Part shown: piece after piece, positions 21,019-23,589 of the stretch
Position numbering within the stretch: the first letter of the stretch is position 1
Layout: each line of letters begins with the position of its first letter
Assembly (NCBI GenBank): GCA_017303675.1
Contig: JAFLBX010000001.1
Location: 1,685,970 to 1,749,969, forward strand
Direction: 5' to 3'
Origin: Ignavibacteria bacterium
GTDB taxonomy: Bacteria > Bacteroidota > Ignavibacteria > Tepidaquicellales > OLB5
Length of the DNA stretch: 64,000 bases
The notes under the pieces: generated by a model
Told to the model about the DNA's origin: nothing
The model's input: only the letters and a program-made list of their open reading frames with translations
The model's database searches: none
Program-made: the position numbers and the translations under genes

Positions 21019-22269
21019 ATGGCAATTTCACTTGTTACTGATGCAACTTACGGAGCAAAGATCAAGGTTATTGGTGTGGGCGGCGCAGGCGGCAATGCTA
21101 TCAACAACATGATAGAAAAAGGGCTGGACAGCGTTGATTTTATTGCATTGAATACTGATATACAGGATCTTGAACGCAGCAAAGCTGATATAAAGATCCA
21201 GATAGGCAGGAACACAACATTGGGTCTTGGAGCTGGTATGGATGAGACCAAGGGAGCCAAAGCGGTTGAAGAAAGCCGTGAAGAAATTGAGCAGGTTGTA
21301 AGAGGCTGCGATATGGTGTTCATAACAGCAGGTATGGGCGGCGGTACAGGTACCGGCGGCGGACCCGCTGTTGCAAGAATTGCAAAAGCTACCGGCGCGC
21401 TTGTAGTTGGTATAGTTACCAAACCTTTTGATTTTGAAGGTGATGACAGGCTCAGAATTGCAGAAGAAGGATTAAAAAGATTCAAGCAGGAAGTTGATTC
21501 CTGCATTGTTATTCCCAACGAAAGACTGCTCACAGTTTTCGGAGAAGAAGTTACACTTGAAAACAGCTTTAAAAAAGTTGATGATGTGCTCTATAATGCT
21601 ACAAGGGGCATAAGTGATATTATCACCAAAAAAGGTAAAGTTAATGTTGATTTTGCTGATGTAAAGACAATAATGCGTGATATGGGTGATGCGCTTATGG
21701 GTATTGGCTATGCAAAAGGCGAAAATAAAGCGCTTCGCGCAACACAGGAAGCGATCGATAACCCGCTGCTTGAAGGTGTATCAATAGCAGGTTCAAGATC
21801 AATTCTGCTTAATATCATTGCTGATCCCAACTTCAAGATATCTGATCTTAAGAGCATGACCGAGCTTATTAAACAGGCTGCAGGCTGCAATTACGGTAAG
21901 CTTATCTGGGGTGTTGTTTCTGATGAAAGGCTTGAAGATGAAGTTATTGTGACAATAATTGCAACCGGCTTTACCGTGGCTCAGGCAAAACAATCAAACA
22001 CATACCCTGAAAAAGAGGAAGTAAAAACAAAGAACCTTCTGCTTAACACATCAGAAGATAATGTTGTAAAAATACCTAGCACTCAGCAGGAACTGCAGGG
22101 ACTGGATATTCCAACTATCCGCCGCAAAGACCTGTTAAGCGCTGAAGACCTTAAAAAGATCCGTACAAGGAATGAAGAAATGGATATCGAAGATTTCGAT
22201 TTCAATTCCGATGATTTCAAAATTTCAAATGACGATAAACCTGCTTTTTTAAGAAGGCAGATGGATTAA
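21019..22269 (+). CDS. ftsZ: Cell division protein FtsZ
   Basis: Tubulin-like GTPase forming the Z ring. 416 residues; tubulin signature G-G-G-T-G-T-G-G-G-P (107-116), N-terminal G-V-G-G-A-G-G-N-A (19-27), and the T7-loop region N-V-D-F-A-D-V. The linker is short and acidic, and the extreme C-terminus K-P-A-F-L-R-R-Q-M-D (407-416) matches the conserved peptide bound by FtsA. A second, similar segment L-D-I-P-T-I-R-R-K (362-370) lies upstream of it. ATG preceded by AAGGAG (21003-21008) at 10 bases, a usable Shine-Dalgarno. It ends the dcw cluster; a candidate structured RNA follows. Confidence 0.97.
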   Translation: MAISLVTDATYGAKIKVIGVGGAGGNAINNMIEKGLDSVDFIALNTDIQDLERSKADIKIQIGRNTTLGLGAGMDETKGAKAVEESREEIEQVVRGCDMVFITAGMGGGTGTGGGPAVARIAKATGALVVGIVTKPFDFEGDDRLRIAEEGLKRFKQEVDSCIVIPNERLLTVFGEEVTLENSFKKVDDVLYNATRGISDIITKKGKVNVDFADVKTIMRDMGDALMGIGYAKGENKALRATQEAIDNPLLEGVSIAGSRSILLNIIADPNFKISDLKSMTELIKQAAGCNYGKLIWGVVSDERLEDEVIVTIIATGFTVAQAKQSNTYPEKEEVKTKNLLLNTSEDNVVKIPSTQQELQGLDIPTIRRKDLLSAEDLKKIRTRNEEMDIEDFDFNSDDFKISNDDKPAFLRRQMD

Positions 22270-22296
22270 GATTTTATTATAATAAATAATTAAAAA

Positions 22297-22440
22297 GTAC
22301 TGTCCCGCTATGGATAAATGTGGTAAACGCTTAGTATAAGGGTTGACGTCACGAGGCTGACCTCGAGAGGAAGGTATCTTAGTTGTGCTCTGCCTTCAAT
22401 ACGGTTGCGGTCTGCTTCGTACCTGTGTATGCCGGGACCT
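22297..22440 (+). ncRNA. Candidate structured RNA after ftsZ, 6S-like fold, unassigned
   Basis: The 270 bases between ftsZ and the convergent WD40 gene fold into one long interrupted hairpin. Closing stem GTCCCG (22302-22307) with CGGGAC (22433-22438); next GGTA (22322-22325) with TACC (22420-22423); then a large asymmetric internal loop; inner stem GTATAAGG (22334-22341) with CCTT-CA-ATAC (22393-22402, two-base bulge); and an apical CGAGG-CTGA-CCTCG hairpin (22352-22365). Closing stem, central bubble and terminal loop resemble 6S RNA architecture, but I cannot confirm family membership from primary sequence, and the 5' and 3' ends are estimates. It lacks SRP and RNase P core motifs. A strong terminator follows at 22506. 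It may be processed from the ftsZ transcript, as no TAnnTTTG promoter is seen. Confidence 0.45.
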
Positions 22441-22505
22441 TCATACTGTTTATTACAAGATTTCTACCTCATCTTTTCCCCGAAAAAAGCCTCCTCCATT
22501 AACCC

Positions 22506-22541
22506 GAAGGGTCCTGACCAAACAGGACCCTTCATTTTTTT
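22506..22541 (+). terminator. Rho-independent terminator of the dcw/structured RNA transcript
   Basis: GAAGGGTCCTG (22506-22516) and CAGGACCCTTC (22523-22533) form a perfect 11-bp stem with a 6-base loop, followed by A and a T run from 22535. The T run overlaps the last codon of the convergent WD40 gene. There is no T run on the other strand, so it serves the plus strand. Confidence 0.85.
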
Positions 22542-23589
22542 AGGGAAGAATAGATGTTGTTTCCCACAAAAGAATTTTTTCACCGGAGCCGCCTGCTGCG
22601 AGATATTTGCCGTCAGGCGAAAATTTTACGGTGATAATTTCACTGCCGGGAAGTGTTAAAGTTTTCAGCAGCGCAGATGTTTTTACATCCCAAATCCTAA
22701 TGGTCTCATCATTGCTTGCCGTTGCCAGGTATTTGCTCTCAGGTGAAAATGCTGCTGAATTTACATTTCCGCTGTGGCCTTTCAGTGTAACAATTGAGCC
22801 GCCTGAGCTTACATTCCACAACTTCGCGGTTTCATCCTTGCTTGTACTTGCAAGGTAATTACCGTCGGGTGAAAATGTTACAAACATAACCCTTGAAGAA
22901 TGTCCCTTATATGAAGGCGCGAACTGTTTGTTATCGAAGCTGTAAATGGCGATATTCTTCCCCATGCTGCCTGCTGCAATGTAAGCTGAATTGCTGCTGA
23001 ATGAACAATTGAAGGAGTTGTACCTGTATGTTTCAAATAAATTACTGCCAAAAAGCTCGCCATCAGGATCGTTTGGAATGCTGAGCCTTAGGGTTTTTGT
23101 CTTTTCAAATTTTCCTGTCTCGTGAATATCAACTATAAAGTTCAGCCTGATGCCTTTATCCTGTTCCTTTTCGGTCGGTTCCCTGGTATATGCTATTGCA
23201 AGCATTTTACCATCCGGTGAAAATTCCGCATAATATACATTATCTTTCTTGCTGAAGGTCTTTAAGATCTCTTTTGAAGACGCGCGCAATACTGTAACAT
23301 CACCATCATACGAAGTAAATACAGCCATATCAAGTGATGCAGGGGAATAATTTATTGATGTCACATTGCTTCCGGTTTCGAGTGTATGTGTTTTCTGCCC
23401 GGAAGAGATATCCCAGAAGAACAGATTGCCTTTTTCATCTGAGCCGGCCAATGTTTTTGAATCAGGCGAAAACGCTGCGGAATTAACATTCCCTTTAAAC
23501 CCTGTAAATTCAACCGGGTTCTGCGCAAAAACAGAGATCTGTATTAACAGTAATAAAATTAAAAATCTCATATTTAAATTAAATTTCAT
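22540..23589 (-). CDS. Secreted WD40-repeat protein
   Basis: A 349-residue exported protein with a signal peptide (about 1-22; hydrophobic L-I-L-L-L-L-I-Q ending F-A-Q) and a beta-propeller of WD40 repeats. Repeats are recognisable by F-S-P-D/E-x-K-x-L-A followed by x-x-W-D/N: for example near 38-60, 125-135, 235-265, 275-305 and 318-345. One blade near 130-200 carries an insertion (I-A-Y-T-R-E-P-T-E-K-E-Q-D-K). Such propellers are protein interaction platforms; no partner is evident. A second possible start is Met7. It converges on the dcw cluster. No operon partner on its strand. Confidence 0.8.
   Translation of the reverse strand: MKFNLNMRFLILLLLIQISVFAQNPVEFTGFKGNVNSAAFSPDSKTLAGSDEKGNLFFWDISSGQKTHTLETGSNVTSINYSPASLDMAVFTSYDGDVTVLRASSKEILKTFSKKDNVYYAEFSPDGKMLAIAYTREPTEKEQDKGIRLNFIVDIHETGKFEKTKTLRLSIPNDPDGELFGSNLFETYRYNSFNCSFSSNSAYIAAGSMGKNIAIYSFDNKQFAPSYKGHSSRVMFVTFSPDGNYLASTSKDETAKLWNVSSGGSIVTLKGHSGNVNSAAFSPESKYLATASNDETIRIWDVKTSALLKTLTLPGSEIITVKFSPDGKYLAAGGSGEKILLWETTSILP

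Follow-up and report, generated by a model that had tools for sequence, protein, structure and literature searches.

A candidate structured RNA was found directly downstream of the cell division gene ftsZ in the analyzed window, a 64,000-nucleotide stretch of an Ignavibacteria genome (G000). Judged by comparison with related genomes, it is a new RNA family with strong covariation, lying outside Rfam. Most probably it is a trans-acting base-pairing RNA, derived from the tail of the division operon and independent of Hfq, which controls the cell-shape operon for an M23 peptidase and a bactofilin, most likely by lowering its expression. From the complementarity described below, we strongly infer base pairing between a C-rich arm of this RNA and the leader of the M23-bactofilin mRNA.

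The host gene ftsZ (21019-22269, plus strand; an open reading frame with Pfam domains Tubulin and FtsZ_C) is the last in the order murB-ftsQ-ftsA-ftsZ. The first-pass annotation of this DNA had proposed that the 270 bases after ftsZ are non-coding, and no convincing gene was found between 22270 and 22541. The whole RNA, comprising a 5' leader, a structured domain, a C-rich arm, and a terminator, was placed at 22291-22541 (plus strand), as the block from AAAAAGUACUGUCCC to the terminator is conserved in relatives; its 5' end is approximate. Near this end lies an unpaired element, CUGUCCCRCUAU (22300-22311, plus strand), which is nearly invariant among 14 sequences. Several relatives disrupt the GUCCC/GGGAC pairing that it could form with 22433-22438. 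A short open reading frame after 22311 (MDKCGKRLV, then stop) was rejected, as it is kept in five close relatives only, with start and frame lost in others.

The RNA ends in an intrinsic terminator (22506-22541, plus strand), with the stem 22506-22516/22523-22533 followed by seven T. Its stem carries compensatory changes in relatives and its loop, ACCAAA, is conserved. The earlier description of a very strong terminator was borne out. The same applies to the claim of a structured region: the segment 22297-22541 had a folding energy of -73.3, compared with a mean of -60.1 in dinucleotide shuffles (z -3.3, 0 of 200 shuffles), and is conserved in relatives.

Two further observations concern the terminator. 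A WD40-repeat gene (window 22540-23589, minus strand) is convergent with the RNA and stops at the RNA's terminator; transcription running through from this gene would give an RNA antisense to the arm. In genome G008, the terminator hairpin alone (C154:54963-55021) was found with 30/30 bases identical, apparently 3' of an unrelated gene, as if terminators had been copied between loci.

Each of the 12 further genomes from the genus keeps the stretch, with 72-92% identity over most of its length, and it is also conserved in one genome of another genus. In G014, which represents a third genus of the family, the RNA is kept with a different terminator stem; this copy was found with a model of the 3' half and read by eye. 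A covariance model of the 5' domain, searched against 391 genomes of the class, recovered 14 family genomes and one marginal match (E 0.036), with strict filters used over 40 genomes, where divergent copies could be missed. No Rfam family fits, either in the window at gathering score or at the locus at E<=10. The only match, BjrC68 (16.9 bits), falls on the terminator and was regarded as chance. In the literature searched, which left out most subscription journals, neither an earlier report of this RNA nor any sRNA study for this bacterial group was found.

The consensus fold was obtained from a strand-corrected alignment of 14 sequences using RNAalifold, followed by refinement by hand. The structured domain (22320-22456, plus strand) consists of five helices. 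P1 (22320-22328/22448-22456) and P2 (22333-22344/22436-22447) form the closing stem, P3 (22351-22362/22409-22420) forms a long arm with P5 (22370-22374/22393-22397) at its apex, and P4 (22422-22425/22432-22435) is a small side hairpin. Between P2 and P3 lies the bubble UUGACGUCA (22343-22351). Its UGACGUC (window 22345-22350) is invariant in the 14 aligned sequences although the flanking stems have been rewritten, and UUGACGUCA is also kept in G014; this part may be a protein or ligand contact.

Two-sided changes were observed in 27 of the 44 pairs of this fold, against 11.3 in shuffled alignments and 8-14 when the partners were slid. Standard pairs occupied 89.1% of cells, compared with 81.4% after shuffling and 35-48% after sliding, and 0 of 500 shuffles reached either score. 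The minimum-energy fold of most single sequences shows the same architecture, as does that of G014 (z -3.5), which shares almost no stem-sequence identity. In G000 taken alone, the energy of the 5' domain was unremarkable (z -1.3), although the centroid retains P1, P2, P3, and P5; comparison across relatives was therefore needed, since the single sequence is not decisive.

The helices first drawn for this region (22302-22307/22433-22438, 22334-22341/22393-22402, and a 5-bp tetraloop hairpin) did not survive this comparison. They gave 71% standard pairs, against a shuffled mean of 71.4%, and three pairs changed on both sides across 14 relatives where 2.8 were expected. The broader proposal, that the division operon is linked to an ncRNA not described before, is supported on the corrected fold, in view of the strong covariation, the strict linkage to ftsZ, and the lack of an Rfam match.

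The first-pass annotation had also noted a likeness to 6S RNA and suggested a check against Rfam. 6S RNA binds the housekeeping RNA polymerase and templates product RNAs, and its bubble is longer than about 6 nt. A divergent 6S RNA, that is, a rod that binds RNA polymerase and carries a bubble mimicking an open promoter, was considered very improbable here. The closing stem, the bubble, and a side hairpin on the 3' side do recall 6S, and the slot is open, since the relatives yielded no genuine 6S RNA. However, neither the 6S (RF00013) nor the 6S-Flavo (RF01685) model matched the locus even at E<=10, or the window at gathering score. Instead of a rod with a large single-stranded central bubble, the consensus has a 5' bubble of only about 6 nt and a branch carrying P3/P5 and P4. 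A 6S identity would also leave the conserved, unpaired C-rich arm and its matching leader element unexplained. By every feature tested on the sequence, the RNA is not a 6S member; the likeness to RF00013 and RF01685 is loose and confined to the closing stem and bubble.

Searches with 6S and 6S-Flavo in the relatives gave nothing credible except one match in G008 (C76:574-678), a 6S-Flavo-like RNA with 50.7 bits, below the cut-off of 85, upstream of an apparent RNase Y gene. As it is absent from all sister genomes searched, its contig is probably contaminating Bacteroidota.

The main functional clue, which the first-pass annotation lacked, is the C-rich arm ACCUCAUCUUUUCCCCGAAAAAAGCCUCCUCCAUUAACCC (22466-22505, plus strand) together with its complement in the M23-bactofilin leader. 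From CCUCAUCUUUUCCCC to AAAAAGCCUCCUCCAUUAACCC, the arm separates the fold from the terminator and is nearly invariant and unpaired in the consensus; from ACCUCAUCUUUUCCCC to AAAAAGCCUCCUCCAUUAACCC it is nearly free of G. In the minimum-energy fold of the whole G000 RNA, part of the arm is paired internally, and the arm can form a hairpin, CUUUU-CCCC-AAAAG. A model of the 3' half returned second loci antisense on the M23-bactofilin leader, at the same place in several genomes. Other weak matches of this model showed no recurrence between genomes. A general anti-Shine-Dalgarno role of CCUCCUCC was rejected, as the complement is far longer than a Shine-Dalgarno sequence and recurs only in the M23 leader.

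With genes assigned by Pfam domains, the order at the partner locus is polA-PEMT/ICMT-[promoter]-M23-bactofilin, where PEMT/ICMT stands for a gene of a methyltransferase like these two. The operon products are a membrane-anchored M23 peptidase (a peptidoglycan hydrolase) and its cytoskeletal partner, a bactofilin, a pair known as a morphogenetic module (PMC10945521). In G000, the leader starts after the TATATTTG box (C2:407238-407245), carries the element at C2:407268-407308, with which the arm is predicted to pair, and reaches the start codon at 407390. The leader can form the hairpin CCUUUU-GGGG-AAAAGG. A long hairpin lies downstream of the pairing site (G000:C2:407307-407351), and similar hairpins occur in most family leaders.

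The element was present in 11/11 family leaders recovered, four family genomes having given no leader because it was missing or at a contig edge. It was present in 0/9 leaders read from the sister family, which is without the RNA. The 14-mer core CTTTTGGGGAAAAG has exactly one exact copy in the 3.65-Mb G000 genome, in the M23-bactofilin leader. In a profile search of 15 genomes, no second recurrent complement of the arm was found; five leaders had been built into the profile, and the matches to these five are thus not independent. One genome only showed a further site of possible complementarity, GGAAGGCUUUUUUGGGAAAGGAUGAGG, where a gene for a probable secreted protein begins (G007:C133:44132-44157).

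Predicted duplexes between arm and leader spanned about 16-36 bp (25-36 in 10 of 11 species), with energies from -23 to -51 kcal/mol. In G000, the duplex had 34 pairs and reached -47.9 kcal/mol. For comparison, segments of 144 nt (about 1,770) were taken from both strands of the 64-kb window with the arm's own complement left aside; their best value was -29.5 and their mean -13.9 kcal/mol. This difference, together with the element in every recovered leader, excludes in practice that the leader match is due to chance. A structured 3' untranslated region that only stabilizes or terminates the ftsZ mRNA would suit a position directly after ftsZ and a strong terminator; since it requires such a chance match, it was judged very unlikely.

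The first ten RNA-leader pairs were also compared with dinucleotide-shuffled leaders. Six gave z values from -5.9 to -8.2, and G009 gave -5.7. Pairing was weaker in G013 (z -3.6) and in G014 (z -2.5, on a shortened leader). A value of 0.6 for G004 came from misplaced leader limits; with the correct limits, its duplex reached -51.1 kcal/mol. Cognate pairs averaged -42.5 kcal/mol, compared with -39.8 for mismatched pairs (permutation p 0.0003, ancestry uncorrected).

The clearest case of co-change was G014, with CCCCAAAACC in the arm and GGUUUUGGG in the leader; of the 11 arms, its own gave the best pairing with that leader. Another candidate, a U-A to C-G change, came from G009 (arm ACUUCCCC, leader GGGGAAGAGG), but this case is weak because, taken as a whole, the G009 leader forms better duplexes with some foreign arms than with its own. 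On these computed values, the arm resembles the seed of trans-acting base-pairing sRNAs: it is conserved and accessible, and its complement lies in a target that is itself conserved.

Alternatively, a transcription factor might recognize the shared element as double-stranded DNA, through the palindrome CCTTTTGGGGAAAAGG present at both loci, with the RNA fold serving a separate role. The core of the M23 leader is indeed palindromic in most species, and a protein site would likewise be complementary between strands. G014, however, loses the palindrome and keeps the complementarity, which in G003 and G004 runs beyond the palindrome (CGGGUUAAUGGAG/CUCCAUUAACCCG). Moreover, the strands never switch roles: at ftsZ the RNA invariably carries the C-rich sequence, and at M23 the mRNA invariably carries the G-rich one. 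At one of the loci, the site would also lie at the extreme 3' end of a transcription unit, an odd place for an operator. A DNA site was therefore considered improbable, and pairing between the two RNAs remains the preferred reading.

In the proposed mechanism, the tail of the division-operon transcript would give rise to a regulatory RNA of about 250 nt, and its arm would pair in trans with the 5' untranslated leader of the M23-bactofilin mRNA. Contact probably begins as a loop-loop kiss, CCCC against GGGG, of the mirror-image hairpins, and would then zip outward. The predicted duplex lies near the 5' end of the mRNA and leaves about 43-103 nt between itself and the start codon, which makes direct blocking of the start codon unlikely. 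The long duplex would most likely lower expression through RNase III-type cleavage or through loss of a ribosome standby site or of leader structure. Another candidate mode is control of the hairpin downstream of the element. If regulation is repressive, strong ftsZ expression would restrain the shape operon.

The repressive sign is little better than a guess. It is quite conceivable, if less probable than repression, that the pairing is real and acts in the opposite sense, with the RNA activating the M23-bactofilin mRNA (by 5'-end protection or by refolding of the hairpin) or with the leader acting as a sponge for the ftsZ RNA. The position of the duplex, at the 5' end of the mRNA and closely followed in most leaders by a long hairpin, would suit this, and there is a precedent in FtsO, a sponge from E. 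coli ftsI (PMC7815308). Attenuation control would fit the terminator-like U-runs that follow the hairpin in G003 and G014; as these runs are confined to the two genomes and not conserved, attenuation is not general. Nothing in the sequence fixes the sign in either direction.

With regard to biogenesis, no conserved promoter was recognized in the AT-rich gap of about 30 nt that separates the RNA from ftsZ. Synonymous conservation does not rise in the 3' codons of ftsZ either, as it might with a conserved promoter inside the gene. It is therefore simpler to suppose that the RNA is processed from the ftsZ transcript, and an RNA made in this way would report on division-operon expression. Hfq (PF17209) was found in 0/21 genomes searched, with control genomes positive, which departs from an Hfq-dependent sRNA and fits long, self-sufficient pairing rather than short pairing. 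A bolder variant, which we regard as rather unlikely, is that the tail of the ftsZ message, perhaps uncut, serves as an Hfq-free riboregulator: the 5' domain with UUGACGUCA would sense a protein or ligand and gate the arm, and mRNA-to-mRNA pairing would pass division status to the shape operon.

Among known systems, sRNAs from mRNA 3' ends (CpxQ, SdhX, DinR; PMC9438474) share with the proposed RNA a position after a coding gene, the use of that gene's terminator, an unpaired seed, and pairing in trans. Here the RNA lies directly after ftsZ in 15/15 genomes of the family (uncultured Ignavibacteria), with one terminator at 22506-22541, as in 3'-end-derived sRNAs. Those sRNAs are mostly short and Hfq-bound with short seeds (PMC9438474), whereas the ftsZ RNA has a branched domain of about 140 nt, no Hfq gene found in the genomes searched, and predicted pairing of about 30 bp.

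FtsO of E. coli likewise comes from a division-gene transcript and pairs with another RNA; it lies inside the ftsI coding region, associates with Hfq, and sponges the sRNAs RybB and CpxQ (PMC7815308). The present RNA, in contrast, follows ftsZ and has its complement in the leader of an mRNA. Two sRNAs also connected with ftsZ, DicF and Klebsiella DinR (PMC9438474, PMC10907235), repress that gene, whereas here the ftsZ transcript is the proposed source and the shape operon the predicted target.

The predicted kissing contact also has a counterpart outside the chromosome. Plasmid antisense RNAs (RNAI/RNAII and the pT181 type) act through kissing hairpins and are encoded opposite their targets. 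Kissing of complementary hairpins followed by a long duplex with a target leader is the shared feature; unlike these RNAs, the ftsZ RNA is encoded at a chromosomal locus unlinked to its predicted target.

The predicted target operon is of the lmdC-bacA kind; M23 peptidase-bactofilin operons of this type are widespread and shape cells through local wall hydrolysis (PMC10945521). The literature searched contained no description of such operons being controlled by RNA, and coordination between division and cell shape has been studied largely at the protein level. In this family, a conserved RNA after ftsZ with one clear complement genome-wide offers a concrete, testable wire between the two processes and suggests a link, through RNA pairing, from cell division to the genes for cell shape.
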